A DNA stretch of 64,000 bases from the NCBI GenBank assembly GCA_905221615.1, contig CAJNDT010001857.1:536001-600000 (forward strand), given 5' to 3'. This document shows, in pieces, positions 11,201 through 60,520 of this stretch. The stretch's first letter is position 1; every line of letters begins with the position of its first letter. The notes below the pieces were generated by a model, which saw nothing but the letters and a program-made list of their open reading frames with translations, was not told where the DNA came from and ran no database searches. Both the position numbers and the translations under genes were made by a program. The stretch is from Symbiodinium sp. CCMP2592 (taxonomy: Eukaryota > Sar > Dinophyceae > Suessiales > Symbiodiniaceae).

Positions 11201-11216
11201 AGTGGTGCTTCGAATG
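11201..11216 (+). promoter_or_regulatory. candidate spliced-leader acceptor and start codon of engB
   Basis: AG at 11201-11202 lies 11 nt before ATG 11214, and 188 nt after the stop of gene 2. The same acceptor is also in phase with the GC donor after 10999, so cis-splicing to gene 2 cannot be excluded. Confidence 0.35.
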
Positions 11217-14200
11217 GCAATTGAAAAACTGAGCCTGCATGAATGTCTTGACGAAGTCCGAGCCTACATAGTAAACTTTCAGACCAGAGATCCAAACCAT
11301 GGAGCTCTTGAGAACACAGGTCTGCCGTAATCTGTGGAACAGTGAAGTCGAACAGCGAGTAGGTCTCGTCTTTGTGTTGGGTTCCATCTTGTGTGTCCTG
11401 AAAGGTTGTGGTTCAGGCTATACAGACAAAATATGTGGGTGAGTATTTCGAGGGCTTATATAGCTAGCAGAGGCAGTGGTTGAACATCTCTGAGCATCCG
11501 GGCTTTTGAAGATGCCATGCAGATGCGGAGTCTGTATCCGCAAAACGTCCTAGGGCCAAAACGCATTGCATACTTTCGGCACTGATCGGGAGTGTCGGAA
11601 AACAACGAGACCTTCATCTAAACTTTAAACCCAAAGCAGTAGAACCCTATTACACTCACCCTTACACAACAACCTCTAAGTTTGAGGTTCGGCCCTCCAC
11701 CCAACGACACCATTCTAAAAGTTTGCCAGATAGCGGTGTTCGGCCGCGTGAACTCTGGGAAGTCAGCCTGGCGCTTGCAAACGTCATGCAGCAGTAGATG
11801 TAGTAAAGTGACAGTAATGACGTATAGCTCACTGAAGGATTTATAGCTGTTGTTCTTCTACACTTCTGGAGATGATGCCTCGACTGTCACAAAGGGGTAT
11901 GCGGCTGGCAGGTCCTTTGGGGAACCGAAGCTTGAAACAGGTTCTGCATCTAGGAAACTGCCCAAGCGTAGCCATCACCCAAAGTCTAGCAAAACCCCTT
12001 GGGGGGGACACTTGCCGGGTCTCTATGTTCAGCAGCTTTCACGAGTACGTAAAGAAAAAATCATGGTCCAGATCAAGAATATTGCCTATAGTGTAGGGGT
12101 AAGGGCTCTTTGGGCAGCGGCATTGTCCTGTCTTTGGTGGTTTAAATGGTTTAGCGCTTTGGGCTGGACGCACAGTTACCTACTATGTGGTTGGTCGCGT
12201 TGGGCCATCCAATTGAACACCTTTATCACCTGCAAGATCCTGCAAGTATAACCGTGCAACTCTTTCATACAAGCTGTCTACGGGGCAGGACCGTTGCCGA
12301 AAACTTGAAACCTCCTCGGTCTTGCGTGTATCCTCATCATATCCATACAAGCTGTAAGCACAGCAGAGCATTTACAAACTAGAACCGCGTTCTGGAATCC
12401 TCAAAAAACCACTTCAAAAAGCCCTCGCATAATGCAAACATCCACGAAGCCCTGGCCCCATCAACTCGGACCACCTCGAGGCGATGCTCCAGCACCTCTT
12501 CAGCGCGACGAACCCTAGAAGAAATGGCTGCGCACTCAGAGCGAAAAAAGCGTAGCGGGACTCTGGTCTTGGGGGTTTAGTCAGGAGTCAAGAGTTCAGC
12601 GACTTAAGGTCAAAGCTTTGGGATTTGGGGGAGTGTGATGGGATCGGGGCTTGCGATTGTAAGATTCAGGCTCCGGGGCACAGACCCGAGATGATACACA
12701 GCAGACCAAACAAGGCACTTCAGGCTTTGGGCTTCGGGAACGGCAGGGTTCAGACATAGTGTTGTGATCATACACTCGTCTTTTGATATCTGCAGTTGCG
12801 AATAACGAAACCAGGCCCTGCTCAGAAAAGCAAAATACTGTGATTTTCATAGCTTAGGCGGGGTAAGGGGCGCAATTGCTCTTCAGATGCGGCCCTGTCT
12901 AGCTTGGGATATCTTTGTGTCCCTCAATGCACCGCTGGGCTGGGAGTTTCTTGGGCCACATGACCCAAACCCCAGACTCTACACTACACGCGCTTGGGGC
13001 TTCGGGGAATTTAGGGACTTGGTTTTGGGTTCAAGTTTGGTTTCCCCACACTTCAGGCACTCAGACTTTATCCTGAATCATAATTATATCTACAGCTAGA
13101 GATAAACCTTCAACTGGTTGAGGCCATTTCTCCGTCGCCCAGACTCCTGGAAAGACCAAGGCTTGTCGACTGTTGGGGACGTTACAGTGGTTTTCAGGCT
13201 TAGAAGGTCAGCCAGTTTTTCGGCTTGCAGGCCACATTGAGGACAACGACGGACATGTACAGGGCTTTGGGATGCAAGGTATTGTGAAGGCTATGTATAC
13301 CGCTTGAGAAATTACCGGTCGCAACGAGGATTCTCGAGAGCCTCAAGGTAAGCTCCTTAAGACGCATGAAGTTGCAAGCTATCCCTGTCAGCAGTGCCAT
13401 CGTGAATACCCGGGCTACGAACGCTTAAACTTCAATAAGCCCATCCCTCGCCCCCATAGACTCCCTGAATCCCACACTCGGACCTGCAATCCTTGAATCC
13501 CGAACCCCAGGTAAGGCCTCAACTCCTTTTGGGCTTGAGTTCGGGCTTCAGGGTTTGGGTTCATCGTCTAGAGGTTTATGAGAGCATTTGCCCCCGGCCC
13601 GTGGTAATTCCTAGCTACTAATATATAGGTTTGCTCTGAATTTCGTACAGTAGGGTCTGATTGCATGAAACTCTTCAGAAGGATCAACCTTCAAGCTCTC
13701 AGCCCTGCAAGCCTTGTGAAGCCTCAAAACGCCTTGGATCAACCTCGTGACATACTGAAGATACCCTACAGTTACCATGGCCAAGCGCTAGCTATAATTG
13801 TCCTGCCAGGGTGTGCAAGTCTACTGCCTCAACCGCCGCTTTACGATCGCAGATATGCCGGGTTACGGCAAGAACGATCGCAGACACGAGGCTACTTTGG
13901 TCTTTGGGTCTAAGGATTGGGGCCTAGGTTGTTGCGTGTTTGGGAGTAGGGGATGCGTTGGCTTTGGGTTGTTGCGCAGTCTGGTGACAAGGTTTCGTGG
14001 CTTGGGCTTTGTTATATAGGGATTACGGATGGTGTGAGTCATCTTAGACATGTTTTTGGTGATGTTTTCCTCTACGATGGTGCTTTTTGGTTGTGAGGCT
14101 TCGGCACGTACTCAGCACTAAGCGGCCAACCATACATTCGAAGAGCCCCTCGCAGCCTAGTTCCGCACTTCAGGCGTGCTGCTCTGAACCCTTGGGTAAC

Positions 14201-17200
14201 GGCTTTGTATGTGAATCAAAATGAGGACCCTGATCTGGCTGAAGGTCTACTCTCGGGATGGTCACGGGTCCGGATAAGCACCTTTATTAGATCATGGGTT
14301 GTCTGCTTCGTTCTCCCGTTTCCTTTGTTGCCGTTTCTGAATTTTTCTGAGTAGTGCCCCAAGTGAGTTTTGGCGGTGGTTTGAGAATCTCACTCCAGCA
14401 TCAGGGCCGAAGAGACCAAATTCAGATAGCTACTCATGCATTGATTACAGTCAAACTATTTTGGCCCCTGTCCAAAATTGAAGAATCCCGTGAATGGTCA
14501 TTCGCCTTCACAAAACCTTGCTAAACCTCATGAGGACCATGTTTCAGCCTTCTGCCGGGGTTTCTGCGAATGTATGCAGGACTCTTTCGCATGGTGGTGA
14601 GAGCATGGGTGCATGTCCTTATGCGGCAAAACCCTGCTTCATGTGGCACTTCCATCCTAGGACACCGGTGCAGAAATTGCATACCCTTCGACTCACATAC
14701 TGGCGGTTTACGGCCCTCTTGGAGTTTAGGGTTGGAGTCCCAAGAAGGAATCAGCAAGGACATGCCTGTAAAATTTGCATACTCGCACATAACTAAACCC
14801 TTACGCCAACATTTATACCCTGAACGCAGGTGGCGCAGGAAATCCACAACAAGTGGGATTCCCAATGGAAGCCTTTGGTTGAGGAGAGCTGCCTTGCTGG
14901 TTCAGGTCATCTTGCAGGGGCATGTGGGTGTTTTTTGGCTTTAGGGTAGCATAGCTACATTCACTGGAGGTAGGACTCAGGTAGGACCCTACTGGATGCC
15001 AAACCTTGAGGCCACTTGTGAAAGCAGTGAGCCTTCAAATCCCGCACTGTGCAGGAGTACCTCAAGACCACACACTGGCTCAGGGCTGCCATCTACGTCC
15101 ATGACATCGGCAAAGATGCCCGCTCCTGAGTTCCATTGAGGGTGCGAGTCTTCGAATCGAGATCGAGGGATTCGGCAAAATAGCCGAGCTGCCTCTGGTG
15201 GATGAAGTGGAAACATGTAGGAAAACTGAACCCCGCAGCTTCTGTAAGAGCTCAGACTCGGGTCCGAGTTTCACGACCTAGCTGGGAGTTTCTGACATTT
15301 AGAGTCTAAAATCTCGGGCCCGCTTGTCAGCCAGCATCCCTTCGGGTCTACATCAATTGGATGCCAGCCCGAAAGTCTTGATTAATAGTGTTGAGCTTGC
15401 AGGGAGGCAGGTAGACAACACCATCATTACTTCGGGTTCCCCTGCTGAGTCGCCGAACCGCAAGCCCACACCCTTTGCCTCCAAGGCTTTCCCTTCACTA
15501 TTCATAGCCCGTAGGGCTCGAGCATGAATAGATGGATAGGGTTAAGACTAAGATCGAGATAGAAGCCTTCAGTCATGCATATGCTTGTTGCAGAAATACG
15601 CACAGATACCTCAAGGGCTGAAGCAAAAGTGGCCTTGAGGTGACCGACGCAGACTTGGAGACCCTGAACATGCTGAAGTGAACTCCGCCTCGCTTTCTGC
15701 CCCGCAAAAGCTTAAGGTAAACCCTTCGGGGTGACCGGCCCTGACCCCGACCGGAAGGTCTGACGGCCTGGCTCTAGTTTGATGCCAAAATGCCAGGCCT
15801 GCGGGTCTTGTTTAGGGCCGGGTTTAGGCCGAACGGTTGACGGCTGAAGGCGGCTTGCGCTTCCGGTTGCTTCCTGGGTATAGTGGGGTTCTCTCAAAGT
15901 CTATCTACACATATGTTTGCTGTGCCGGAAACCCTGCTTCTGTACCCATAGGCCCAAACCACTCTTCTCGATGCCTTTTTTGCAAGTAGCCCGGAACCCT
16001 CAGACCGACAAGGACAAGGTTAACAAAAAGCCTCGAGCATGACAGGGAGCATGGCATCCCGACGTTGCTCGTCTTCACCAAGGACGACAAGGCAGTGTTG
16101 CTAGTCGATCTTGGTTTGTCGCTATTTCAGGGATCAGGCACTTGGCAAATAGGCTGCAGGCCTAGGGGTTACATAGGCCTTTCGATAAGATGTGGCAGGA
16201 TTTACACCTGAGCACAAGAGCAATGCAAGTAAATGTGCCGAATCATAGATAGTCCCTCGGGCCAGAGTCCTTACAGTAAGATTTCTCATTGCATCCCCTG
16301 TTGCTCCCCTCCCCGAATACTTCCTTCTTGTTTTCCACCTGATTGTTGAGCCTAAACCCTGTCCACCGGAGCATGTCGCAAGTCGGATCGGACAAGACAA
16401 AACAGCAAGACCCTGAACCCTGCAAAGGCACCACTCTGAAGCCCTCAAACGATACTTCAGGATCATCCGAAAGTTGGTTAGTGTTTGCGTTTGGGGCTTG
16501 GGTTGCCGGCTTAGAGCTGAATCCGATGCCAACTTGGATTCTCGAACCCTTCGAATAAACTCCGACGCCCTCGACGCCCTGAAACTGCGGGCGAGGTCGA
16601 CTCGGAGACTCATCGTCAGAGTCGAACTCGGTACCTGAGGCGCGCTCGGAGAATGCAGGTGTTCAGGCTTTCGACAGGTTTGTTCTATCCGAGGGTCTGG
16701 AGGAGTCCAACTGTCGAGAGTCTGGGTCATCGTGTTCAGTGTAAAGGGTCCTCGATCCTCTTTTGAGTCTGCATTATTGGCCGGTTTGGAATATTGAGTT
16801 GAAACTTGTTCCGTGCTGTGAGAACACAGTCCGGGCCTTAGAAAACAGGCATGGGGTACCTCAAGCCTTGTCGCATTGCTTGACTTGAAGGCCACAGGAA
16901 GTAGAATGGCCGAAGGATTTACAGGGTTGAGGGTTTTTGGAATTGGATGCGGGTTTACGATTCAGAAGCGTGCACCATTTTCCAGGGTATGGGCCGCTGG
17001 GTATACGCTGACTGCCCCCTGGGCGCCTGAATCCAGCCTTCCGATATTCCACTGGTCCCTACAAAGAACGCCAAAATCCCTAGACATCAAGAAAACCTTC
17101 ATCAGCCCGCAAGCAAACCCCCCAATTCACCCTCCGGTCTTGCCTTCTCAGCCCGAGTCTGGCATGTGACCTGCTGCTCACAGGAAGAAGCAGGCACAGA

Positions 17201-17686
17201 TGGCACACTGCAGCCAAGGTGTCTCAATCCAGCCGTCCGAATCCGAAGGTTTCAATCCTTCAGATTCCGTGAAGTCTCAAAGCTTTTATGCACGGAGCCC
17301 CCTCAACTCTTAGCCTGAAACGGCTGCTACTCCCTTTGAGTAACGTAGAGGCAATACCAGTAGACTCTGGCTCCTTTTGGGGCTTATACTATGACTTAAC
17401 GCGTAAGGCAAGTGGAATGACGAATCACATGCACGAATCAGCCAAGCAACTTGTGTCGGAATGCCCAAATGGGAATCATGCTGCTTCCTTTCCGACTCGT
17501 AGCCATTCTGCGGGGTCATAGAACGAAAATCTCCTGCAACTCTACAGAACACTACAAAGTCCCCACAACAAAAGCTACAAAACGCTGTGGGACGCTACAG
17601 AGCGAGCCGGCCAAGTGGCTTTGTTCCGGGCCATGGAGGCGGGTCAAGGCAGCCCACCGAACCCAATCCCTGGCGAAACTGGGTAA
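11214..17686 (+). CDS. engB: gene 3: EngB/YihA (GTPBP8-type) ribosome-assembly GTPase
   Basis: Eleven exons give 191 aa, the usual EngB size (about 195-210 aa): 11214-11303, 11730-11765, 12481-12502, 13123-13160, 13810-13890, 14839-14883, 15055-15117, 15640-15677, 16046-16091, 17188-17218 and 17601-17686 (TAA). Visible motifs are G1 at residues 35-42 (GRVNSGKS), the family TPGKT at 57-61, G3 DMPGYG at 77-82, and G4 TKDD at 149-152 after EHGIPTLLVF. Residues 105-125 (EYLKTTHWLRAAIYVHDIGKD) fill the strand before G4. The segment after G4 (KQAQMAHCSQ and onward) is less certain and no G5 SS/SA was seen. EngB proteins act in assembly of bacterial-type large ribosomal subunits, so a mitochondrial or plastid role is likely, although no clear presequence is seen. 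Donors are 7 GC, 2 GT and 1 GA. Confidence 0.85.
11730..11765 (+). CDS. engB: engB exon with P-loop (G1)
   Basis: It encodes IAVFGRVNSGKS and ends at a GC donor directly after the P-loop Ser. The next exon opens AMLQHLF, giving GKSAML where the family has GKSSL. Confidence 0.8.
12481..12502 (+). CDS. engB: engB 22-nt micro-exon
   Basis: It encodes AMLQHLF plus the first base of a Ser codon. It fits between the G1 exon (phase 0) and the TPGKT exon 13123-13160 (which starts with the last two bases of that codon). The borders are AG|G and a GC donor. Confidence 0.6.
13810..13890 (+). CDS. engB: engB exon with G3 (DMPGYG)
   Basis: The 27 codons encode GVQVYCLNRRFTIADMPGYG and then KNDRRHE. The acceptor is CCAG|G, the donor GAG|GC, and the exon is phase 0 on both sides. 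FTIADMPGYG is diagnostic of the EngB/GTPBP8 family. Confidence 0.9.
16046..16091 (+). CDS. engB: engB exon with G4 (TKDD)
   Basis: Its first base completes the Lys codon left by the GT donor after 15677. It then reads EHGIPTLLVFTKDDK and ends AAG|GC. GIP-x-x-x-V-x-TK-x-DK is the expected EngB context. Confidence 0.9.
16092..17187. other. engB intron containing a long antisense ORF
   Basis: No + strand exon was recognised here. On the - strand 16134-16895 is open for 253 codons (first codon GTG), the longest non-repetitive ORF in the window. It shows no motif I recognise. Confidence 0.4.
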
Positions 17687-17771
17687 AAGCAACTAAAACT
17701 GATGTCGTAAGGGAAAATGAAGATAGGACTTGGAAATGAGGAGTTCAGGGTTGACAATTTTAGGGTGATGC

Positions 17772-17791
17772 AGGAGTTCATGGCCCTGAAG
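17772..17791 (+). promoter_or_regulatory. candidate spliced-leader acceptor and first coding exon of gene 4
   Basis: AG at 17772-17773 is followed after 6 nt by ATG 17780. The coding part reads MALK and ends AAG|GC after 17791, in phase with the membrane-anchor exon at 18261. Confidence 0.4.
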
Positions 17792-20700
17792 GCCTTAGGG
17801 TATGACTAAGCGTTTGCAGATTGGGAACTGGTGTCTGGGAATGCGAGGTTCTGGTCTTGGGCAGGATGCTGTATCTTTGAAGTTTCGGGCTGAAAGGAGC
17901 CCAGCACCGCATAAGGGCTTTACATCCCTTCGACCCGTGACCTCAACAGTTTCATGGGAGCTTCAAAGAACCGAGGCGCTGTAACAAGACATAAGCCGAA
18001 CAATAGGCTGCTCGTTGTATGGACGCTTACATAAGGTATGCCAAGTGTCTGCAACCCCGAAACAGCAAATCCAATCCCCCAAACCTTGAACATGAAGCCA
18101 GGTTCAGGGTTTCACAGGTACAACTCAGGCTCAACATAGCCCAATTCTTGACATACTTTTCGATTAGAAAACAATCATGCATTTTCCAGACTAAGGCACA
18201 TACCAGACGTCTTGCAGTTCAGGGCCGCAGCGGGCTCCTTAGGATCCATAACCGGCCGAGGAAGCGCCGCCTTTCATCTGGCTCCTGGTCCTTGCGGCCG
18301 CCGCGCTCTGGTGGCTATGGCCATGGCTGGAGCGAAACTTGCCCATTATTGAATGCCAGTTACCGTCGACGTATAAGGGTTGAAATATGGTAGTTGTAGC
18401 CAGGCAGGTATTTGCGAGAGTATATGGTTATCATGTATGTGGACTCTCTCAATAAGTTGATCCTGAAACCGCAAACCTCAATCCGTAAAATCTGAAACCC
18501 GAAGCCCCTTTACCCAGGGTTGTTTATATTGAAATGCTAGAATCTGAAGCGGGACGATCTCCAGTTGAACACCAATCCTGATGGCTGGATCAGAAATGAT
18601 ACATCTATATATATATATATATACACACACACACATTTATGCATATATACACACACAGAAAGCGTCGCACTGCAGGTCCGAGTTTTGAAGCTTTCTGTTT
18701 TAACACGATAGGCTGGGATCTTGCTAGTCTCTCCATCTACCTATCGATCTATCTATCTATCTATATATCTACATATCTTTCCTTCTTTCTATATCTATAT
18801 GTGTGTATACATATGTATATATATATATATATCAACATGCACACGTATGCACATACATGTGTGTGCAGCCAATGGGCTCAATATAGTGCAAACACATACA
18901 GTATCTACATGCTGAACATACAGCGAATCTGGGCTCGTGTTTGTCTATGTTTGACCTTTTTGTGCCTTGATGTGGTTTTGCATGTCGTTATACGTTCGTG
19001 TTTGCCCACGTCTTGGTGACCAGCCCCGGTTAATATGTCTATTGTGCTGTTTACACCATATACCTGCACATCTTATCTTGCTGTTCACCTCACACCTCAC
19101 GGGCGCGTATGCAAAGACTTTTTTGTGAGCGGCATTGGCCCGCATTGGCCAACTCTTCATCGCTAGTCTGTGTAATCGGACCACAGAAGAGTCGACTAGC
19201 TCATGGTCGCCGAGCCTGTGTTTTGCAACAACGCTGTTCTGGCACGTCCTGGTAAGACCGCCCAGGTCCAAATGCCCAATAATAAAAGCTCTAGCTTCAG
19301 GACTCAGGATAGTGGACATTATGGGTCAGTTTTTGTGGGAAACTTTGATTGCTAGATAATATTTCGACGTTTTAGATTACAAATCTTTGCGTGTTCACAC
19401 GTAGGCTTCTGTAAAAAAAAGCTAGGGCTTCCGTTTTGCGGGGCTTTTAGGAACTGAACTTGTTGCTTCCATAACCTTTGACTATTTACAGTCCTATACA
19501 GGCTTTGGGCCATCACAATGCAAGGCTTCTGCATGGAGGACCGAAGACTGGAACCTAATTTACAAAAGGTGATGTCGCTGCTGGGTCCCTCTCCACCCAA
19601 GGCTGGCAACAGGAGCGTCAAGCACCACCCCCTCCCAGCGCCGAAGAGCGAGCAGCTGCTGCGTCCATTCTTGCAGCCGGCATCAAGGGCGAGGACGGGG
19701 GGGGGCGGGGGGGGAAAGCCTGGAGAGGGAGGGCGGCAGGAGGGCCCTTTTTTTTGCGTTCCTTATGCATTCATGGGCTTGCCTTCTTTGTGGTTCGACA
19801 GGGACCGTTGCTGGCTGGTCACCCCAACCGATAACAAATGTCCTAAATCTTATACACTTCCGTCTGTTCGACTCAACATAACATATCACACAAGAACTCA
19901 AAAAAGTCCTCGGGAACGCAATAGTTGTAACACATCCTTAGAGCCTGAAGGTGAGGGTCTTCAATGCTGTCGTGCAGCAGTGCACGTCGTAAGCTCTTAA
20001 ACAACACCTTTACGAAGCACTGTAGCACCCTGATACAACCCTTCACCCCCCTGCACCCGCAAGCGCGGCTCCGCGAGGAACCAGAGAGCGACGTTGAAGA
20101 CCTCCTAAGGCCTTTATACGGGAGGCTTTCTTTGCAGCTTTCCGTATAGAGGTGTCAGGCTGGCTTTCACGGGTTAGTTCGAAGCAAAGTATGTAATTGC
20201 ACTCATAACCGGTTGGAGCCAGGTACTTACAACCAGGCTAGCTGACTGTGTATGCCACTTTTCTCTCGTCCCCATTTTGGGCTTAAGATAGCTGACAACT
20301 GTGCATAAAGCTTCAAGCAAGGCCCAGGACATCCCAATCAACCTTCCAGTTTCGACCCCGACCCTCCAAGCCCAAAGCTGTCAGACCCCTTAAGCCTATA
20401 GCCCAAACCTTGCAACTTACAGCTACGCTAGAGCCCACAAGCCTTGGGGCCTGAATTCCGACCGTTTATGAACTCATCAGGATCACGCTCGCACCGTCAC
20501 AGTCTCACTGCTTGATGTGTGCTCTAATTTAAGGTTTAGGTTTTCGGGGTCTTGGGCTTACAGCATGTGGAAGTCCGGAACTCGCAAGCACCGCAGCCAA
20601 TGCTCCCGCGAGACCTGACCTGGGTTTCGATCCTCTGACGGTCTTCCGGGAAAGCTACGCGCAGGCTTGTGGTTTGATGGAGAAGGCGTCCTGCTTGTTG

Positions 20701-35700: not shown

Positions 35701-38628
35701 CCATATTCCCATATCCCCAACCATCCCAACCCATATATCTCGAGACAATGATACCCACGAAACGAACCTCAGAACCAGCGGTGAAGAACTGCAACCACAA
35801 ACCTACTCTGCTCAAGCGGAACAGTTGGCTTGCGGAAGAAAGCGCTGGAACCTGCGCAGGGATGGATGGGGAGTCGTAGTCCTCAGATCTAGGGGGTCTG
35901 CGGTGTAGGAGTTTGGGTTCAGCCTTCGCAGAGTTTAGGACTTTGGGATTGAGGATGTACAGGTGAGGAGTTTGGGGTTTTGGGCTTTTGTTAGAGAACA
36001 TGCAGGCATGCAGGTCGTACCTCGGATTTGAGTTGCAGTATAGCAGCACTGAGCAGCCCGAATGCCGGTGTCTTCAGGGGATGAATGCCAATGTCTTGAC
36101 GTTCAGACTTGTTCCGTAAGGAGATGTGCAAATCACGGTTCACAGACTCTGGACAGTCGGACAGCTGCAAATCTAAGACAGGAGGTATCCTAAACGAACA
36201 TGGTCTCTTGGATTACTAGTTGCTGTTCGTGTTTTGCGTTGGGGAGCGAGGTTTCAGAGTTCGATTTGATGGCTAGGCGATTTAGGGTGTACAGGGCTCG
36301 GAGTTCATTGTGGCGGCAGTGGGAAGCCGAAACCCAAGACCCTGCACCTCAAACCCGTATACACCTGATCACTCTCGCGGGAAGGGTTCTGTTCCAGGCG
36401 CAAGCTCCGGTACGACTTGTTTTCACCCCATGCCCACTACACCACGCGAAGAGGCGGCACCAGCTGCTTTCATGTTGGCTTTAGAGTCCAGGGTTCAGGA
36501 ATGAATCTTCAATTTATCGGCTTGTAATTGAGGGTTTGGGCGAGCTCCAAACCCCTAATCACTACAGCCTGAGGTTGATTCAAGACTCACGTAGAGGCAC
36601 TGTAAGACCTCAGTGCAGAGAGACCGCATATCGCTTGTTGCACAAAATCCGGGTTCCGGGTTGAGGGTACATGCGACATCACGAGGCTCGCTTGTCCGTC
36701 ATGCAGAGCTTTATCTCACTTCGCACTGCCATTGCAATGTTGAACCCGGCTGGCCAGAGGTGCTCAGACTCTTCTGCTCGTCTTGCTATTCCGCTTGGAT
36801 GTATCTGTGGCTAGACTAGACTCCAATGGTGGGGAGTCTTGACTTGGAGAAGTGCCTTTCTCGCCGTCGAGATTGCGAGCAAAGCCGTCTTAGGACGCCG
36901 GCTCGAAACAGCATCGGATGCACATCCCTATCTAATCCTTGCTAACTTTTACTTTCCATGAAGCACACATAGCGGAATGCAGGATGCATTGTCGAAGCTT
37001 CCATTGCGGAATCCGCGGATCTCCAGCATGAAGTCGGTTGCCCAATTCAAGCACCCGCAAACTTGCAGTAGCACTCCGGTTGTGTTGTCTTAGTACGAAG
37101 ACATTAAGGTAAAGACATGAGGTCGTCATGATAGCTAAGATCGCAAGAAGAGCATGAGTTACCAGCAGCCCAAGGCTCGAAGAAAAACCAGTGCAAGTTT
37201 CAATCCTCAATCGGCTGCAGGCGGCTACGGTCAGGTCTTCAAGAACATGGCCCGGACCTCCGAGATCAAATGAATGATCATGGGGGGCTGTTTGGGCTCC
37301 TGTAAGCTGTCACCTCGACGCATAGCCTGGTTACAATGTTTCCGAAATTGATTTAGAAGCAATTAGGGGTCCTTGTTTCGGTGTAGAGTTGAGATGGACT
37401 TGCGCTGGATCGCGGTGTGAACATGGTCAATCACCCTCCACAGCTTACCTTTCTACATATCTATATGCATGTGTATATATATATACATATATACAATCGT
37501 ATGACATATGTGTGTCTGTAGATACATATATACACACACACACACGCGCACATATATGTTTACACATCGTGCGAACAAGTGAGCACAGACATGTATGGAT
37601 CCATAGCGGGGACATGCACAGTAGGCAGCGCTTGGACGGCGAAAACTCAGCGTGTCCTCAAAGTGTTACCTGGTTGTGCAGCTGGGACGAGTATGGACTC
37701 CAAACCACAGCTTCGATTCAGGAACCTTGGACTTGAAACTCAGAGACAAGCGACTTTGGGCAAGTAGCATTGGACCTAGGAGTACAGCAAGTTACAGTGG
37801 ATTAGCCGTTGACCTGGGAACCCTACACCCCTACTATACCTAATTAAAGCTCAAACCTCTACCGTGTACCCTCTGGCCTCGCTCTGTGACCCGCAGCTTG
37901 GCACGATGCTGCTTGGCCTCATAGCCACGGAGCAGCGTGAGGATGCCATGTATGCGCTGAAGGCAAGGGGGTTTGAGTCTAGGGGATTGCTACACGATCT
38001 TTCCCATGGTGATGTTAAGTTTTAAGTGACACGGCATTGGTGAACATACTGCTAAACGGGCTTCTGGTACGTATAAGACTTGAATACATGTCATGTACAC
38101 ACACCTCAGGTGGCATGAAGTGTATGAAGAAAAAAGTGGTCTTTGGTCGTGCTCACTTAGCAGCTTAAGCCCCTGGCAGAACGAGCTGCCGGAAGTGTTT
38201 TGGGACTACCGCGACAAGTGCCTCCTCGTCGTGGTGTGATGGATCGCTGTTTTTTCACTGAAAGTAGTTGGCATTTAGCTCATTTGGAAGATCTTCGTTT
38301 GTTTAAGGTTAGCTTGTTAGAGGCACTCGTATCAAAAGACCATGGAGCGAGGAAGAGGGTGTGATGACGTTGATGATCAATGAATACGCTGCTTGTGATA
38401 GTTAGGACAATGACAAAACGAATGTCTTCAATCACGGTTTCCTTGCTTTGACACAGCAAAAAATATAGTAGGTTTTCGGCGGCCTACAGGTCGGGTCTAT
38501 TGTGATTCAGGATGAGGTTCGATCCCCGGCACAACCGGTCAAAGGTTGCTGGGGTTGTTCTTGAAGCTTCTGCTATTGGCAGCGGGGCTTAACTGCTGCT
38601 ATTGCTAGTACGACTAGGAATACTAATA

Positions 38629-38667
<39 letters not shown>

Positions 38668-38668
38668 G

Positions 38669-38706
<38 letters not shown>

Positions 38707-38743
38707 GCTACTGCTACTGCTCCTGCTTCTGCTCCTGCTCCTG

Positions 38744-38797
<54 letters not shown>

Positions 38798-41700
38798 GTA
38801 CTAGTACTAGTACTACTCCTGCTTCTCCTACTGCTACTACGATGACGACGACACAGCCACACACTAGTCAAAGTTCGAAAGGATGTTTGACTAGGGTCCC
38901 GCTTTGCCTTAAGATCCGAACACTGTGGTACACAGACACACACACACACACACACTATGGAGTCAACATGTTCAGGGAAGACCGTTGGTCGGTGTTCACA
39001 CGAGGCGTGCTCCACGGGAGGTTCCCGCATGCGTGGATTTGCTGTGGCGCGGTGCATAGCTTGTCCCGTTATTTCCACAGGATTCCTCGGTCGCCGGCCT
39101 CCGGAAAGGCGGATGGATTCATCGCAAATTCCAACGCATGGGAAATCTCTCGGCCTCGAAATATCCGAATCCCGCCCAGTGCCTTGGGGAAGACTTTTGT
39201 CCGTTTTATGGGCGGAAGCATACGCCGGGTGGTCACGATGGTCTCCTTGTAGTTTCCCCTCGTCGTCTCCTGATGGATGTGGTCGTCCTTGACTTAGTGG
39301 TCCTGGTGGTCGTAGCCCAAACCATTCGCTGGGAGATTCAAGGTACCTGTGAGACGGGGTTCAAACTAGTTAGCGCGCTTCAAGTGCAGAAGCCCCAAAA
39401 GTTGGACACACGGCAGCGATGATGGCTAACGATCATGATCAGTGCAGGTATTGCCTGTAGTTTGCGGTTTCCAACTTCTTGGCAGTTGCTGTTGCTATAG
39501 CCAGGCGTTGACTGAGCTAGCTGCACTTCTGACCCTTCTGTACCAGCTTACCCATGAACTGTGAGCTGGCATCTGGCCTTTCAGGGTTTGCTGATTCAGA
39601 AAGATATTTCAAGCATTGCAATGCCTACAGGGAGGTTGCGGAGGGGGGGGGCAGAAGTCAGTGATAACTGTTTACAGTGTTCTTTTCGGGCTTCTAATGT
39701 TACCCTTAGGCAACTATAGTTTTGAATCGGGAACCGGGGTCTTTACTACAAGACTCCTTTTTGCATTCAGGGTTTGCCGATCGGGTCTGTACTGGGTCCC
39801 TTCTTTTCTGAAACACTCCTTAATTTACTTAGCTACAAGTTGCGCTGAAAAGCGCGGTTGCCTGAATCCTTAAGCCGTAGTGCACGGGCTTGCCAGCCTA
39901 CAGAGCATCGTTTCAGGGACCGAAGACATTTGAATAGGACGGTATTGGAAACTAACCCCTTTGCAGCGGTAGTACCTTCAAAAACTGATCTTCGAGTGCG
40001 AATGTTGAGCACCCAGGAAGATCTAATTGTAGACGGAATCCAAACCCCAAGTATCCTAGAAGCCAGAAGCCCCTAACCAGTGATCAGCAACGACCAAGCA
40101 ATATCAAGCATACTGTAGGAAGACATCTGACAGTTTCCCGATCTATTCGTCTTTGCAGCCCGCGCTTTGGCAAGCCAAAGGTACGTGCCGAAGCCCCGCA
40201 GCTTCTTTGGGCGAAAGCCTCCCCCCAAGAAGAGCCGACAGTATCCCAACGAGGCGGTCAGTGGCTCTACTTTTTACTTGTACTTGTGTGGATTCTGGAG
40301 CTTGGGTCTTAGGGATCTGGGGTTTAGCTCGAGGGTTTTGCATCGTTGAGCTTTCGGGATTAGGGCGTTAGTCCTCTGGATTTTGGGTCTGGTCCTGCAG
40401 GGTTTGGGTGTTTTGAGATTAGGCCGTTGAATCCTGCAGCGCTTAGGGCTTAGGGTTTAGGGGTTTAAGAATGTTTGTTTTGAAGGCATACTGCTGTGCA
40501 ACCTTTACCTGTCGGCTCCTCTTCTGGGCCTCGTCGACGGTAGTACAGTAACGCAGGATTAGGATACCCGCACTTGCGTTTTCTAAGCAAACTTCGACCC
40601 GTCGGGTAACCCTGAACCTCAAAGAGCTTTCAAAACCCTATCAAACCCTGTACAAACTCCTTCAAAACCGGAAAAACAAACCTCAGAAGCCCCATGAAGC
40701 CCTTGAGACTCCTTTGAAGCTCGATGGTTCATACGAAAAGGGGCTCTGAAGTCTGCAGCAGGACGTGGTCTACACGCAAGAGGAGCTGGATGAGGAGGAG
40801 GCAGGCTTCAGGGTATTATGGCTTAGGGTCTTTAGGTGTGGAGTGGTTTAGGATTTCGGATTAAGGCGACGTAAATTTGGGGCTTCTGGGTTTAGGGGGT
40901 GCTGAGTGGGTGTAGAGATCTACATTTTGTAGATGCATAAGGTTGTTGATGCTGATGCATACACACCTTCAGAGCACCTTAGTTCAATTCTCTGGACGCA
41001 GCAGGAATACCAAGCAAAGACATTCGCTCGCCGACAATTCAGGAACCGATATCATTACGAAAGCCCAGATGTACTTATGCAGCCATGTAGCTACGGTTAC
41101 AATGGCATCCCATGACAGCACTTAGCAGAAAGCACAAAACTACATCAGCTCTTGTTGCAGCTGTCACATGCTGTCGAAACAACAACCCTAGACCTGAAAA
41201 CGCTAACCTATACTTGCAGGACATCATGAACAAGCGGGAGCTGCGTGCCCTGAAGAGAGACATGCAGGCGCCTGTCATTGCGGCATCCGGTTGAGGTGAT
41301 GGGCCTAATGGGGTTTGGGCTTGGGGTTTAGACTTTCTATGGAGGGGGGGCTGGAGGCGGGGTTACTGTTTGGCATGCAAAACCACGCGAACATGCAGCG
41401 TTGGAAGATCCTCCAGAGTGTGTGTGATCTTGTCGCGAGTGCACGGAAGCCTTCGGTAGCAAAAGTCCGGTTCCGGACCAACCGTTCTATTTCCCACCTT
41501 CCAACGTGTCGGTGTTCACTGTAGGAGAGTAAGGTGCCCTAGATAGAATTTGACTAACACTGAGGACCTACTTTCCAGAACCCTGCATATGAGCTCCATT
41601 CGTTGTTAGATGTCCGACGCAGGCTCTTCTGGCTTGCTGTTAAGATGTTTAGCTTCGGTCGCCATGCTTGGGACACATAGTAGACATAGTATCTAATCTG

Positions 41701-42030
41701 CTTCCCTTACTCTGCTACCTTACCACCATCCTGATACTCCTTGCCTTAAAAAAAGCAGCCAGTAAACCCGTATAAACCTCCCTGCAAAATGCGCTCAAGC
41801 AGAGCACTGGTGACACTTGCAGGAGGGTGGAAAGAAGCTCACCGTCAACCAGCTGGCGGAGTTGGAAAAGGGACCAGCGCTCTCACCCAAGGACCCGGTT
41901 CTGGCAGCTCTATTCGACCACCGACTCCAACACTTCTAAGCGTTTTCTTGAGCAGCCTTGTTGGCTTCAAGGCTTGGAAACGCGGCTGCAGGAATGATAA
42001 TCAGCACATCCCTACCGTCTCGCTGGCGAT

Positions 42031-42071
<41 letters not shown>

Positions 42072-45500: not shown

Positions 45501-45623
45501 CACAAGACACCCCCCCTCGCAGAGAGCCCAATACATGCCCTTGAAGAAGTGGTGCCTCTAAATTCAAGCCATGTGACATATGCTTTAATCAAGGGGTGTC
45601 CGGCTCTCTGGACACCGTGGAAG
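42540..45623. other. intergenic region between gene 4 and the RBR gene
   Basis: No exon with matching phase was found in these 3.1 kb. It holds telomere-like filler in both orientations and a CATA/CA-rich block at 44943-45245. No TATA box or other promoter element could be supported. Confidence 0.45.
44943..45245. repeat. CATA/CA-rich microsatellite block
   Basis: Tandem CATA and CA units in the intergenic region upstream of the RBR gene. Confidence 0.9.
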
Positions 45624-45635
45624 GATGCTCTCATG
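45622..45635 (+). promoter_or_regulatory. candidate spliced-leader acceptor and start codon of the RBR gene
   Basis: AG at 45622-45623 lies 9 nt before ATG 45633, the first in-frame ATG of the RING1 exon. No further upstream exon is needed to complete the protein. Confidence 0.4.
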
Positions 45636-46290
45636 GCTCGATGGGCGCGCTCACGCGCGCGAGCAGCTGCAATTGAGGCCGCGGCCTCTGCCCAGGGCTA
45701 TGACTCCCAGTCTGTGCCAGAACCCGGGCAGCCATGCCCCATCTGCCTGGACGACGTGGTGGGGCAAGCCAGGCTATCTTGCGACCATGTGCTTTGCGCA
45801 GAGTGTCTCCTGAGGCCCTCTGGCTGCAGCCAGGTCCGTAGGTCTTACTTAGCAGGCCAAGATTGGGAATATACATTTTTGGATTGGTGTTCGTTTGCAC
45901 CACCGACACTGCACCAAACGATTGTGCCACAGCCCCCTAAGATCGAGAGCCTCGACAGTCCTCCACGGCCTTTGCTCTGGTGTTGGGCTTGGGGTTGTGT
46001 TTCGTGATGTTCCCAGGTCCAAGCCTAAACCCAACAGACCCATTCGGAGCCAGCACCGTCCGAAGCTTCATCTATCCAGTTTTTTTCACTGCTCAACATG
46101 GTATAGGGTCGCATGCAGAAGAACACTCTCGCCCTGATCCTCGGTTCGGTTGACCCCGAACCCGAACTCCGATTCTGCAAAAACCAGGTATGTGGAGAGC
46201 CTGGTGAACCAGGGCAAAGTTGCTGCCGATCAGCTTGCCTGTCCTCTACCCTCCTGCCGCACACCTATCGCGACCAATGCCCTTGCGGAC
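45633..46290 (+). CDS. RBR gene: RING1 exons
   Basis: Exon 45633-45833 opens MARWARSRARAAAIEAAAS and carries CPICLDD, then SCDHVLCAEC, ending CAG|GT. Exon 46213-46290 reads GKVAADQLACPLPSCRTPIA then TNALAD and ends before GC. The 18-residue gap between the sixth and seventh cysteines and the C-x4-C pair distinguish RBR RING1 from an ordinary C3HC4 RING. Confidence 0.9.
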
Positions 46291-48993
46291 GCTTGCTCGC
46301 TCTACTTTACAGGTTGGTGAACTTGTATGTCAAAACGTAGCCCGCTTAGCCTTAAGCCCTGAACCTAAAACCTGGGTCGATCACCTTCGGTTGCCCCACT
46401 TACTCTGTCGCACAAGTCTGCGTCGTGCCCACTTGGGGTGAAAGAGCACACCTGCCGTTACAGTTCGCTGTTACATTCGACAAATATTTCGGCGCAGAAA
46501 CATATTTTTGTTTTGCGTTTTTCTGGGCATATCATCATAGCGGTAACGCCATGTTAAAGCTTGCTAGTATGCGAAAGCATCGGTTTCGCAATGCTTTTCC
46601 AACTTTGTCCGCAGACAGACTGGGGCATGCGAGTGTGATCCGCCCCAAATCCTCCGCCTCAAACCCTGAGCCCTCACGAGAAAAAGCACCACAGGGCTCG
46701 GAACGTCGCAACACCACTTGAGACTCTCTGTCCCAGCATGTGTAATGGCCTAGGCGTGTTTTGCAGGCAGCCTTTGTAGGCTTGAGGAACTGGCCAGTCT
46801 TTAGAAGTCAGGCAACTGCAATTCGTGGTATTCATAAGCCAAACTTTGAATTCGATCCGATTTGGGCCAAAAGCCCGGAATGCCAAATGCTGAACCCGAA
46901 CTCCCTAATCGACCAGACGCCAGAACGCCAAGCCCGAAACGAAGTCGCAACACCCTAGCGGCCCTACCTTCAAGCTTTGGTCAGAGCCAGCTCCAGGAGC
47001 TCCTTCGTCTGCAGCCCAAGGGAGACGACGTCTACCAGCGGCTTTTGGATTTCCAGGCTGGTAGGAACCGGATGGAACCTACTCGTGGGTGTAGTGTTGT
47101 TCTTTCAAGGTGTAGCTTTGGTGTCTAGCTAGGAGCCCAACCGAAGAGTCCCCTTGGCGGAAGGTCACCCATTATGCCGACCTTCCCATCTATGAGCTAA
47201 ACCGCCTGCGAATGTGTAGCCTATAGATGCATGTCGTTTTGGGCGAGTATGACAAAGTCTTCGGGATAAAGATCATGATTAGCATCGAGGCTCCAAACAG
47301 AGGACCCCGTGTTTCTTGGAACTTTTCTTGCTCGGAGACTCGCAGGTATTCGCAAGAGCTGCTTTATCTATCGCCCGCGTGTAAGTTATCCATGAACTCC
47401 AGGTAAGTCGTGCCGTGCAGGCGCAGCGATTCGAGCCTGAACCTGGCGATGACGAACGGCTCGTGAATTGCCCTAGCCCGGGATGCATCTCGATCCAAGC
47501 AACATGTGGGATGTCTCGAGAATTGTGGGTGCTTCTTTGGGTGATCCTTGGAACAAGGGTCCTGTTGGTCAGGGTTCCGAGCGCACATGTTCGTGCGGGA
47601 GCTGTACTTGTTTCACCGGTGCTTGTATGTCGGATTGTAGCTAGGGTAACTCTGCAAACAATCGACCTACCCGTAACTATCCATGTACCTTGAAGCAACA
47701 TTTGAGCTTCCGTGAAACTGTGTCAAATCTTCAGGGTTTTGGAGGGTTGCTCGGGCTTGCCGTCGTAGCTCAATTTGGCTCTGTCCGACCACTCCTAGGC
47801 CCACAACCCGAAGCCCTTCATTCAACCAATCGTCCAAGGACTCTTGGCCCAAACCCCCAATCCCTAAACATTCGTGCAGTCCCACCGGAGTTAGGGTTTA
47901 GAGGTGCAGGGTTTAGTAGTGAAGGCTATTTGTTTCGGTTCTGTATAAAGTCTTCTAGACAGATTTTGCAGGGTGGCATATTTCCAAAGCACCTCACAAG
48001 GGTCAGGCTTCGTTCCGCTACGAAGGTGGACATGGTAGCAGCCTCCCGCCGAACTGCCTCATTGCCGCCATGTTACCGTCCTACATATGTTATCCCGTGT
48101 CAAGTCATAGTACAACAGAGAAGGTTGCTCATCGCCTCGGTTTATTCTGAGGTATCAAAGTCCTGGTGCCACTCTCGCTGGTCCAAGAGAAAGCCGATGA
48201 CTCTTGCTTGCACCTTTGCAGGGTTGTCCTCATAATTTTCCGCGGGTTACGGTACTTCATGAAAGATAGTGCAAGACTTTGTAGATCGGCAGTATGCCCC
48301 GAGACCCGAAACAGCCGGGAACGGGAACGAAGCTTCACAGCAGCCTTCCTGCATCAGGCCCAAACCACTTTCATTGCTTTGGTTTTGTGGGGTCCCCTGT
48401 TTCCTGAAACAATGCCAGATTATCCTGATCAATAATTCCAACCTGTTCTGGGTATCTTGGCCATAGACCTTGTGTGTTGAAAGCTCAGAGTTTCGTTTCG
48501 GACCTTCGTGGAGATTACAGACGACTCTTAAGCAAGAGACTTCCTCCCTTGATGTCTGTCCCAACCTAAACCTCGAAAACTGTAAACGTAAATCTGAAAC
48601 CAAGAGCGCAAGCCCTCAAAGCCTTAAGTCCGAGTCTCGAGACCTTAAGCCCTAAACCCTCTCGGACCCTCAACCCAAACGCGTCTGAAACGTGAAGCGC
48701 TCGAACCCTGCCCTAGACCCCGAAAGCCTTTCTAGCTGAGGTCAGCTGCCCTCAGTGTTCCCAGCGATTCTGTGCAAAGCCAAGTCTTAGCGGTCTCAGC
48801 GTTGAGGATTTTTTAGAGTTATTCAAACGTTTATTTATAGGGCTTGCACTAGCAGTAGTAGCAGTGAGAACAGCAGTGTTTTAGCAGCAGTAGCACTGGC
48901 ACCAGCACTAGCACTAACACTAGCATCAGTGACAACAGCAGTGGTTTTCGCAGTGGTAGTATTATGATTATTATTAGTAGTAGTAGTAGCAGC

Positions 48994-49051
<58 letters not shown>

Positions 49052-49055
49052 CTAC

Positions 49056-49118
<63 letters not shown>

Positions 49119-49179
49119 TAGTGGTAGTAGTGGTAGTAGTAGTAGTAGTAGTGGTAGTAGTGGTAGTAATAGTAGTAGC

Positions 49180-49232
<53 letters not shown>

Positions 49233-52200
49233 TGGCAGTCGCAGTCGCAGTCGCAGTCGCAGTCGCAGCAGCAGCAGCAGGAGGAGTAGTAGTAGTAGCA
49301 GCAGCAGATGATGCTGATTCGGCGCTCAAGCTCCAAGACCTTAAACCGACATTACATCTAGACTCTTAGACTCTTAGACCTTATAAGCCCTAAACCTTGA
49401 TTGCTTGTATAAGGCTCCAACAAAACCCTGAAAGGTGCCGCCTGTGCACAACCGGCTCACGCGGGCAGCTGCGAAGACGCAGAGCTGCAGAGGATGGATC
49501 CCGCGCCGCCTGATCGCAGAGTAATTGGCGCTGCTCCATCTTCAGGTTTCCTGTAAGGCACCTGACACTTAGGGTTTCGGAGGTTTGAATATTGTCGAAG
49601 GGATGTATGACTTGTAAGCAAGAACTGCAAACTGTAAAACCAAGATATAGGGCTCGAGCCCATTAACCCCCAAGGCCAAGAAAAAAGTTAAGCTATAAAC
49701 CATGTACAAATTCTCAGCTCTAAATTAGAAAGTGAGTCGTAAATTGGGACAAAGACAAAGACCAGGCTCGTCAGTGTCGTTGATTGCACGGGCGGCGTCA
49801 TGATCAGTACAGATCTGGGGGTCTACTATAACTATAGTTGCTCAGCTATATAGGAATTGCGACGAGGTATTGTTATTTGTTCAGACCTTTTCGTTATCCG
49901 TGAAACATAGGACACCACAACAAAAGTCTAGCAAACGGGGTTCTCGTTGGGTTCAGGCTACCGCCATGAGGGCGTCCGAAGCCCGACTGTCTTGCCAGCC
50001 GCTGTTGGCGCCCACATCAGCGAATGCTGAATCCGCACCGCATAAACTAAACCCGAAAACTTTTGCCCCAGACCCGAAGCCGTGATCCCCTTCAACCAGA
50101 ATCCCGAACCCTGACACCCGAGATGTACAAGCCCCAGAACCAAGAGCCCAAATATGCCCAAGGAACCAGCCTGACTTATCCCTCGCCCCTGAGGTTGAGG
50201 CGGCTCATCGCTCAGCAGAGCATCTCGGGTTTCATCCAGTCGTGCCGCAGGGTATGAGGGTTTTGTGTGTGTGTGTGCGCGCGTGCGTGTGCGTGTGCGT
50301 GTGCGTGTGCGGGCGGGAGGCGGAGGGGAGGGAGTCGGCGAGACTGTTTCGCAGTTCCTTCAAACAGACTAATTGCAGCTTGGTACCAACTGCCCTTCAT
50401 CCCCTGTACTGTCTGCGGGGCCCTAAGTCAGCATTGAGAAATCCATCGCGGAGCCCGCTGCCTACCTTAGGCCGTGACTTCATATGTTCGAAAATGGTGG
50501 AACCATAGAGGTCCAGGATCCCTATTAATTCGCAAGGCATTAGCCCGAACCTCGAGGCAGCACACCTGCAACCTTACCTCGACCACGTCTATAGGCTTGC
50601 CCTGCGTCCAAAACTCACTAGTTTTTCAAAACCTCTATACTTATGCTGCCCGCATGAGTGGTTTGGGGTTAAGCGCTGCCTGTTCACACTCCTACCTACA
50701 ACTATATCACCCAGGACGGGTAGTAATTACATAGAACATGCCACCGAACCCTGCCCTACTTTTCACCCTGACCAAGCGCAGAACGCCAAACCCTAGTGTA
50801 TGCCCCATGGGTTATCTGCACGGTTCTGAAGATTAATGTCAAGGCTCAAGGAACCAGTAAGTAAGTCTGCTTTATGAAAATTTGCCAAAGGGATGCTTAT
50901 TGGCTAACCTGAAGCTTGAAAAGCAATGCTTGGGACCTCATTCAAGCATCGTTAGTTTTGCCCCCGATGTCCTCGTTCTTCCAATCCACCCCGAAACTGG
51001 ACCGCAAGACATTAACGTCTATAGTCCCCATAAACCCGAATGCCCTAGACCCTTAACCCGAAATCCTTACCTATCCCAGACACTGAAGCCCATCGATCCA
51101 GATGCTACATTCTCGCGCCCCATCCGCTAAGATTGGAAGAGATGCCCAGTCTGCCGGCATCTCTGTGAGAGAGAGTCGGGCTGCAACTTCATGACGTGCC
51201 CTTCCGAGCAATGACACCCAGCTAAGTTGGTTCAGGGTAGGGGTTTTTGGTTGCCAAAGACAGCACTGTAGAGCCAGAGTCGCCCTAGAGGCTTATCCCG
51301 GCGACTTGGAGTTTGGGAGTTGTGCTTCCATTTAAAACATGATGATCGGACATTATGTCGTATGGACTTAATGGTCTTCCGATAATGGTCGTACAAGTCT
51401 CTACTCAATTTGATGTCTTCGAGGCTCTACAGGCCTACAGGACACAATCGCTGCATTTGTCCATCGCTTGGAGTGTAGCACAGCTCCAGTTCTTTGCAGT
51501 CTTACGGTGCTCATGCTTTGCAGTAAGGTGCTCATGCTCTGCCGTAAAACCCGAATCCAGTAAGAACCCCTCAACCAGAAACCTTTGTCCCCAAAAAACT
51601 GTCTGCCCGCCAGAAGTACTCCACACATTAAACGCTAAAGCCCAAATATCCGCCATGATCCTTAGGGTAGTTGTTAGGCTTCCTGGCTTCTGTTTGGGTT
51701 AAGGGTTTAGGGCTTTAGGGTATGATGCGGAATCATGGCAGGAGATGGGTCCATCTAGAACTTGTTCGGCATAGCGGCTTAAAGCACGAATTCTCTACCG
51801 CTAAATCTGCTTGATCAAGGACTCGGGATTAGGGCCAAACAACAGTCAACTTTGGGTTGACAGGGGTCTCCCTCAAACTCGGTTTCTGCACACCTTTTTA
51901 GAGGAGTATATGCATTGGAATAGGTTTGTTGGGTTTTGGCGATTCTGGGATTTAAATGGCATGGGTTCAGGGATGAAAGGCTTGAGGGCTTAGGGCCGGT
52001 CTGCCGCTTCCGACTGCGGGGGTTGGGGGACGGAAGGTTTTGGGGTTTTCCACACCGTCTGCGAGGCAAAGGGGAAACCTACTTTTGCTACCTTTGTGGG
52101 GAGATCCTGGCAGCTTCAGACCACGCCTCCCACTACGAAGGTGGAGCTCAGAAACTCCTCGGTTTATTAGTTTGTGTTTGCCTGCATGGTGGTTACAATC

Positions 52201-52630
52201 AGGTTGTGATCAAGGAGTAGAACTTCAGCTACATCTCAGGGTTGCATTCGGCATGCTGTTATGATCTTTAACCGATAGCTGTGAAACCCTGGACGGTTCT
52301 CTTTTTGCCCCCCAGCTCAAGCCGGAAATCCCCTCAACGGCTTGGCCAAGGCTCTCAAGCAAAGCCTCCGTCATGAAGCTTCAACTCGTATCCCTCCACC
52401 AGCAGTTCTCCGCCCCTAGCCTCCGAAACCTTAAGACGTAACTTTAGGATCTAGGGTGAAATTAATCCTGGATGCGATGCTCTTCTACGTCTTTGCCAGA
52501 ATTTTTTCTGCCCGCCACCAAGAACCCATCTTGTGAACTTCGTTTGTTTGTGTTTGTGGTTATAGGCTATATAGGCAATGGAGACAAGCTGCGGTGCTTA
52601 TGGTGTAGCCTCGAGCCGAAAAGCCGTTAA
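45633..52630 (+). CDS. gene 5: RBR (RING1-IBR-RING2) E3 ubiquitin ligase
   Basis: Ten exons join to 255 aa: 45633-45833, 46213-46290, 46997-47056, 47421-47498, 48741-48771, 49435-49492, 50194-50251, 51140-51212, 52066-52140 and 52575-52630 (TAA). RING1 spans residues 35-82: CPIC, SCDHVLCAEC, then the C-x4-C pair (CPLPSC) typical of RBR proteins. IBR spans 130-162: CPSPGC, VSCPQC, CAAC and the zinc ligands H158/C162. RING2 spans 190-223: CPVC, SGC203, MTC, C213, FCYLC. RBR ligases accept ubiquitin from E2 onto the third RING2 cysteine, here C203 (codon 51182-51184). There is no Ariadne, UBA or Ubl domain, so this is close to a minimal RBR. Several zinc ligands fall across splice junctions (C150, C213) and are restored only by the proposed joins, which supports them. 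Donors are 4 GT, 3 GC and 2 GA. The last exon is the least certain. Confidence 0.9.
47421..49492 (+). CDS. RBR gene: IBR exons
   Basis: There are three exons: 47421-47498 (ends RLVNCPSPGCISIQ, donor GC), 48741-48771 (VSCPQCSQRF plus T, donor GT) and 49435-49492 (starts GT, completing Cys, then AACAQPAHAGSCEDAELQ, donor GA). The C-x4-H-x3-C spacing equals that in parkin IBR. Confidence 0.85.
48958..49308. repeat. long (AGT)n trinucleotide tract
   Basis: About 350 bp of AGT with GGT, AGC and CGC variants, in the RBR gene intron between 48771 and 49435. It yields poly-Ser, poly-Val and poly-Thr artefact ORFs. Confidence 0.95.
50265..50310. repeat. TG/CG dinucleotide repeat
   Basis: TG units passing into TGCG units, directly downstream of the RBR exon ending at 50251. 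Confidence 0.9.
51140..52140 (+). CDS. RBR gene: catalytic RING2 exons
   Basis: Exon 51140-51212 encodes RCPVCRHLCERESGCNFMTC then PSEQ plus T. With a GA donor that T joins GC at 52066 to make Cys. The second exon gives KGETYFCYLCGEILAASDHA then SHYE. Catalytic Cys is at 51182-51184. The DHASHY tail after FCYLCG also occurs in known RBR proteins. Confidence 0.9.
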
Positions 52631-60000: not shown

Positions 60001-60310
60001 AGCAAGTCATCCTGCCAGGTTTACGTCCTCAGTTACAAGATCCTCAGCCCGGCAGTCACAGCAATCGAATAGGAGATGCTGCCCTTGCCACAGAGAACCA
60101 AGCGTTGGACGACCAAATGATGACCCAGGAGCTATGCGTAGGTACGATAATTAATCGTGCAGTCACAACCATGGTGCCATAGCTCTTGTGACCAAGAATA
60201 TAATGGCAAACGTACGATTCAACAACGGCTACGCCACGGCAACAGTAGCAGTAGTAGTAGCAGCAGTGGTGGTAGTAGTAGTAGTAGTAGTGCAGCAGGA
60301 GTAGTAGCAG

Positions 60311-60409
<99 letters not shown>

Positions 60410-60472
60410 TAGTAGTAGTAGTGGTAGTAGTAGTAGTAGTAGTAGCAGTAGTAGTAGTAGTGGTGGTGGTGT

Positions 60473-60520
<48 letters not shown>

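Follow-up and report, generated by a model that had tools for sequence, protein, structure and literature searches.

Introns that start with GC or GA are known from Symbiodiniaceae. As far as the available portions of the sources go, GC, GT and GA donors are tabulated for Symbiodinium microadriaticum, listed with 50.5% GC, a GC content of about 50% being given for Symbiodinium (PMC5177918), GC donors are about as frequent as GT in S. minutum (PMC4083563), and a review of the family puts GC/GA introns at 25-74% (PMC11453091). Splice sites of sPCP genes, based on cDNA, are given as MWG/gy for the donor and sag/GY for the acceptor (PMC4201569), and gene finders are described as already adapted to the GC and GA donors of this family. 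For the introners of S. microadriaticum, the available text reports a 4-bp duplication together with terminal inverted repeats, the 3' splice site being carried by the element and the 5' splice site coming from the duplication (Gozashti et al. 2022; PMC9860276).

The genome analysed here resembles those of S. microadriaticum, Breviolum minutum and Fugacium kawagutii in having GC, GT and GA donors and an AG acceptor often followed by G. It differs from them in the low share of GT (13/84 introns) and in the order GC>GA>GT, a difference that comes from 13 genes and may be due to sampling. The window most likely belongs to the nuclear genome of a member of Symbiodiniaceae: intron-rich genes, GC/GA donors, GC content and assembly size all suit that family, and values published for Effrenium voratum (assemblies of 1.1-1.3 Gb, 50.6-50.9% GC, long introns; PMC11114475) agree with them. 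The genome would add a further case to the published ones, with a non-GT share that may be among the higher ones. The initial annotation held that a GC majority would be notable; the use of GC and GA donors is not new, having been published for this family. The suggestion that non-GT donors fit a dinoflagellate agrees with the census below and with the published Symbiodiniaceae donors. The reading favoured here is that the introns are handled by the major spliceosome with a relaxed second donor base, as G(C/A/T)...AG followed by G, and that many introns of conserved genes are old introners whose donor was supplied by target duplication and whose +2 base has been drifting to C. A probability of about 0.7 is given to this explanation as a whole, introner origin included.

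EngB-type GTPase and RBR ligase genes

The window, that is, the whole stretch of DNA that was analysed, comprises 64 kb of contig C1857 and has a GC content of 45-54% in 2-kb steps. The two genes that the initial annotation had named, engB and an RBR ligase, were both found in it on the + strand. The following parts of the EngB-type GTPase were located; its G4 motif lies in the stretch LLVFTKDDKA near 16.05-16.10 kb, + strand.

11742..11765, + strand: G1 motif GRVNSGKS, from a motif scan and aligned to L006; ends of the enclosing exon loose
13810..13890, + strand: exon with G3 motif IADMPGYGK, preceded by the acceptor CCAG then G
13891, + strand: putative GC donor, GCTACTTTGG, placed by reading frame and census motif
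16046..16091, + strand: part of an exon carrying the G4 motif TKDD, with an approximate start and a likely GC donor at 16092

An intronless EngB paralog of the same genome (L006) was tried for placing the EngB junctions. It was too diverged, and the spliced alignment shattered into spurious micro-exons, so only the motif exons of EngB were used.

The RBR ligase gene is ARIH1-like (phmmer E 1.6e-5 to PDB ARIH1), lies at about 45.6-52.1 kb on the + strand and aligns with ARIH1 across RING1, IBR and RING2. A close RBR paralog that could serve as internal cDNA was not found among the 16 candidates scored, the best one outside the window having an E value of 0.15. Four joins were testable by the combination of reading frame, alignment to ARIH1 and an AG acceptor before G.

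45661..45814, + strand: exon with the first part of RING1 (CPIC...CDHVLCAEC), start loose
45815..46187, + strand: intron GC...AG then G, placed by frame and ARIH1 alignment; alternative donor GA at 45812
46188..46287, + strand: exon YVESLVNQGKVAADQLACPLPSCRTPIATNALA
46288..46996, + strand: intron GA...AG then GA; its start GACGCTTGC resembles the census motif
46997..47056, + strand: exon ELLRLQPKGDDVYQRLLDFQ
47057..47420, + strand: intron GC...AG then GC
47421..47498, + strand: exon AQRFEPEPGDDERLVNCPSPGC, start of IBR, 3' end loose
48747..48773, + strand: IBR motif CPQCSQRFC from a motif scan, exon ends loose
51130..51212, + strand: RING2 exon RCPVCRHLCERESGCNFMTCPSEQ, 5' end loose
51213..52065, + strand: intron T/GA...AG/GC, with a Cys codon rebuilt across it
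52066..52141, + strand: exon KGETYFCYLCGEILAASDHASHYE, end of RING2, 3' end loose

Read with GC at 45815, GA at 46288, GC at 47057 and GA at 51213, the gene gives an unbroken ARIH1-like protein, and GT is used at 0/4 of these joins. Two of the four have alternatives (GA at 45812, GC at 51198), and other joins allow several possible donors. Because the 19 junctions counted in the initial annotation came without coordinates and several donors are possible at those other joins, its tally of 10 GC, 6 GT and 3 GA is neither confirmed nor denied. The proposal that joins of the RBR gene recreate zinc-binding cysteines holds in kind, as T/GA...AG/GC rebuilds a TGC Cys codon across 51212/52066. The donor at that join is better taken as GA, and the alternative T/GC at 51198 would cost one RING2 cysteine. 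Long triplet-repeat tracts with open frames reading Thr, Ser or Leu runs were also seen in the window, at 38593-39360, 48835-49366 and 60056-60812.

Donor usage in conserved genes

Donors were counted in 13 conserved genes (HSP70, HSP90, actin and tubulin) of the genome from which the window comes, an assembly of 1,098,105,373 bases in 5383 contigs. The genes were located in the contigs by Pfam models and aligned to proteins with a dynamic programme ignorant of splice signals. Reference proteins from the same genome were the intronless BiP (L059), HSP90 (L064) and actin-like (L067) genes and paralogs; the DnaK of the bacterial-looking contig C5051 and a tubulin consensus were used as further references. 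The earliest splice alignment had no rule for ties and left many junctions ambiguous; it was replaced by a choice restricted to AG, which was later checked with the AG rule lifted. Each junction was set by whichever intron with an AG ending scored highest against the protein, and the donor was ignored. The 149 introns proposed were reduced to 121 by dropping 28 from sister copies, and then to 90 resolved introns, defined by a score of ≥45 that is ≥2 above the next AG choice; the other 31 had a score <45, a margin <2 or no AG solution. The dropped tie cases often offer a choice of GA or GC and were kept out of the count. The census is a small sample of related, conserved genes and gives no genome-wide figure; its thresholds were fixed after a first look at the data, and some of the reference proteins themselves came out of this procedure.

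Among the 90 resolved introns, donors were GC in 49, GA in 22, GT in 13 and other dinucleotides in 6 (CA 2, CG 1, TC 1, AC 1, CC 1). With a stricter cut, 74 introns gave GC 43, GA 18, GT 12 and CA 1. The first donor base was G in 84/90 although this was never required, and the next exon began with G in 86/90, in line with the initial annotation's description of AG acceptors often followed by G, AG itself being imposed by the method. The 84 introns with G at both the donor and the next exon were used for the proportions: GC 58% (48-68), GA 26% (18-36) and GT 15% (9-25). Non-GT donors thus make up 71/84 (85%; 75-91%) across the 13 genes. GT is a clear minority when 13/84 is set against one half (binomial p 8e-11) and is outnumbered by GC (49:13, p 5e-6). 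The excess of GA over GT (22:13, p 0.18) and a GC share above one half (p 0.08) were not significant in these 84 introns. The +2 composition differs from that of G-first dinucleotides of the same loci (chi-square p 5e-10). Five introns of an extra HSP90 copy on C680, outside the count, have GA, GA, GC, GT and GA.

Judged from the genomic sequence, most of the checkable introns start with GC or GA and GT is in the minority. The standard GT-AG expectation, with GT at nearly all donors, fails here (GT 13/90). The earlier statement that non-GT donors exceed GT was right in direction, in the census as in the RBR joins; its proportions were not supported, since the census gives GC>GA>GT and places GA, at 22, over GT, at 13, where the initial annotation had GT second and GA third; the census order of GA and GT is not significant. 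It had also conceded that exon ends were partly chosen by phase, and several joins of the window have more than one possible donor, so non-GT donors might be an artefact of that choice, the real ones being mostly GT. This is very improbable given that a donor-blind count puts GT at 13/90 and that the published transcript-based tables for the family agree with non-GT donors. Most of the introns tested would escape a gene finder bound to GT-AG, as could be shown from sequence without RNA.

The 5' consensus of the 84 introns differs from GTAAGT. It reads A (0.65) G (0.55), then intron G followed by C, A or T, with G at +2 in 0/84; further into the intron, C is found at +5 (0.55), T at +6 (0.51) and G at +8 (0.54). 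The 3' consensus is C (0.46), any base, C (0.56), AG, then exon G followed mostly by A, C or T. With the AG rule lifted, the top score was reached by an AG ending in 96/115 introns, by a GG ending in 95/115, and by every other ending in at most 46/115. The GG ending is a one-base shift of the AG splice, made possible by the G that opens both the intron and the exon after it. The two registers cannot be separated by cDNA, and therefore the names GC, GA and GT for the donors rest on the AG convention.

Intron starts and the exons that follow

The exon after an intron tends to open with the same bases as the intron itself. In the 84 introns, identity was found at +2 in 45 (26.9 expected; 0/20000 shuffles), at +3 in 33 (21.8 expected, p 0.004) and at +4 in 30 (20.3 expected, p 0.008), with no excess at +5 (18, 22.1 expected) or +6 (25, 21.9 expected). 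All four bases from +1 to +4 are the same in intron and next exon in 8/84. An inverted repeat of 5 bases begins at +5, complementarity being scored between intron start and intron end, with 2.15 matches against 1.90 in shuffled pairs, a value reached by 5/2000 shuffles. It is weak, at about 0.25 extra matches out of 5, and was not found in the neighbouring registers (+4 reached by 774/2000 shuffles, +6 by 1516/2000). The first match test was done with 64 introns; the precedent of Gozashti et al. was already known when the repeat register was examined and the set enlarged. Intact pairs of duplication and repeat in the window were no more frequent than expected (5 on the + strand and 3 on the - strand, against 4.9, sd 2.4, in shuffled sequence). 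The 4-bp duplication and the inverted repeats are shared with the S. microadriaticum introners; here they appear as just a statistical trace among the introns, taken to be old, of conserved genes.

The odd donors look likely to be copied remnants of mobile-intron insertion sites. In the favoured explanation, the insertion of an introner-like element with short terminal inverted repeats of about CTTGG...CCAAG would have duplicated an adjoining 4-bp target, GHNN. Of the two target copies, the left would have turned into intron bases +1 to +4, and with them the donor, the right would still open the next exon, and the AG would have been supplied by the inserted element's own end. GA, GC and GT donors would then be a legacy of whichever exon sequence the element met. 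Substitutions at +2 since then, mainly towards C, would make GC the commonest donor and GT rare, with GA retained almost only where the next exon still starts with GA. Insertion as the cause would link the odd donors with the origin of the introns.

Two other accounts of the intron starts were weighed. Recognition of +2 alone may have been relaxed, the introns being of ordinary age with a second base free to drift and no legacy of insertion. The variation of the +2 base between sister copies and the weak 5' signal suit such drift, which predicts neither an identity with the next exon that spans +2 to +4 and ends at +5, nor an inverted repeat in the +5 register, nor the lack of G at +2 (0/84); it is regarded as rather unlikely. 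Slightly less probable still is an origin without transposons, by tandem duplication of an AGGN stretch or by insertion at AG/G proto-splice sites. Exons do end in AG (0.65, 0.55) and restart with G, and MAG/G proto-splice sites have been proposed for Symbiodinium sPCP genes in the available part of that study (PMC4201569). Against this, the duplication covers 4 bp starting from +1, such an origin does not predict the inverted repeat, and the comparison of exon end with intron end at -3 to -6, made on the earlier set of 64 introns, gave 11, 14, 17 and 10 identities of 64 where 15.8, 16.3, 17.7 and 14.6 were expected.

The match at +2 is strongest for GA. A GA donor faces an exon starting with GA in 21/22 cases, as against 13/62 for the other donors (p 5e-10), and a GA donor where the exon has another base was found at 1/50 sites. 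With T at exon +2, the donor carries C in 17/22; with C at this exon base, the donor carries T in 5/25 (p 1e-4); and with A, it carries C in 10/34. At codon positions 1 and 2 only, exon T with donor C was found in 15/19 and exon C with donor T in 2/14. If the exon keeps the older state, the donor seems to shift towards C. Introns with GA are not clearly better matched at the next two bases (+3: 7/22 for GA, 17/49 for GC; +4: 10/22 for GA, 14/49 for GC), so youth alone fails to explain the GA pairing.

At the same intron place in sister cytosolic HSP70 genes, donors were GA, GA and GT at position 190 and GT, GT and GC at position 238. In an intron shared by HSP90 genes (L065/L066/L081), GT occurs with exon GT in C325 and GC with exon GC in C680, and at HSP70 position 41 (L048/L050), GA occurs with exon GA in C4928 and GC with exon GC in C5058. 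At this HSP90 place and at HSP70 position 41, sister genes that differ at donor +2 differ in the same way at next-exon +2.

A further interpretation, doubtful but less so than the two other accounts above, is that a GA donor works only as a matched pair, GA...AG then GA, and otherwise yields to C. The spliceosome would prefer C at +2, GT would be a relic kept in a minority of introns, and splicing would include a step that compares the intron start with that of the next exon. Neither the GA pairing nor the drift towards C was found in the literature searched, which did not take in the main dinoflagellate introner paper (Roy 2023). Both are simple predictions for any Symbiodiniaceae cDNA set, and they bear on how a spliceosome with canonical U1 reads non-GT donors.

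Spliceosomal RNA genes and other lineages

At least 42 U1 copies were scored in the genome, and the 5' end was canonical, ATAAACTTACCTGG, in 8/8 copies read. U1 occurs with U2, U4 and U5 in one tandem unit of about 2.1 kb on several short contigs. A search for U6 in L012 gave no match at E 0.1.

C2929, C3641, C3660, C3790, C4008 and other contigs; positions 1-1659 of L012: tandem snRNA unit

An altered U1 snRNA that pairs with GC or GA donors would suit C as the commonest +2 base, and 34 of the at least 42 U1 copies lie outside the 8 that were read. It is nevertheless highly unlikely, given that ACTTACCTG is kept in 8/8 copies read and that a shifted pairing with U1 is not reflected in bases +3 to +6. 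In the favoured explanation, canonical U1 would tolerate these donors, C or A at +2 being accepted through relaxed U1 pairing plus other factors.

Comparable departures from GT are described in other lineages, as given in the available parts of the reports. In Amoebophrya, from the dinoflagellate lineage, introns carry direct as well as inverted repeats and many have ends other than GT (PMC7789003). Its intron ends vary widely and U1 is given there as undetected, whereas here G(C/A/T) dominates and canonical U1 genes are plentiful. In the tunicate Fritillaria, most introns depart from GT/AG and the core spliceosome is retained, and m6A on U1 and U6 has been proposed (PMC13326754). The 3' ends change as well in Fritillaria and U2AF is duplicated, in contrast to the present introns, where AG was imposed and is compatible with 96/115.

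Two further observations were made along the way. The 2.96-Mb contig C5051, which provided the DnaK reference, is dense in bacterial genes (DnaK, GTPases) and probably belongs to an associated bacterium; its loci are L001, L002, L005, L008, L017 and L019. The intronless EngB (L006), BiP (L059), HSP90 (L064) and actin-like (L067) copies each have intron-rich relatives in the genome, the pattern expected of retrocopies, and are usable as internal cDNAs.
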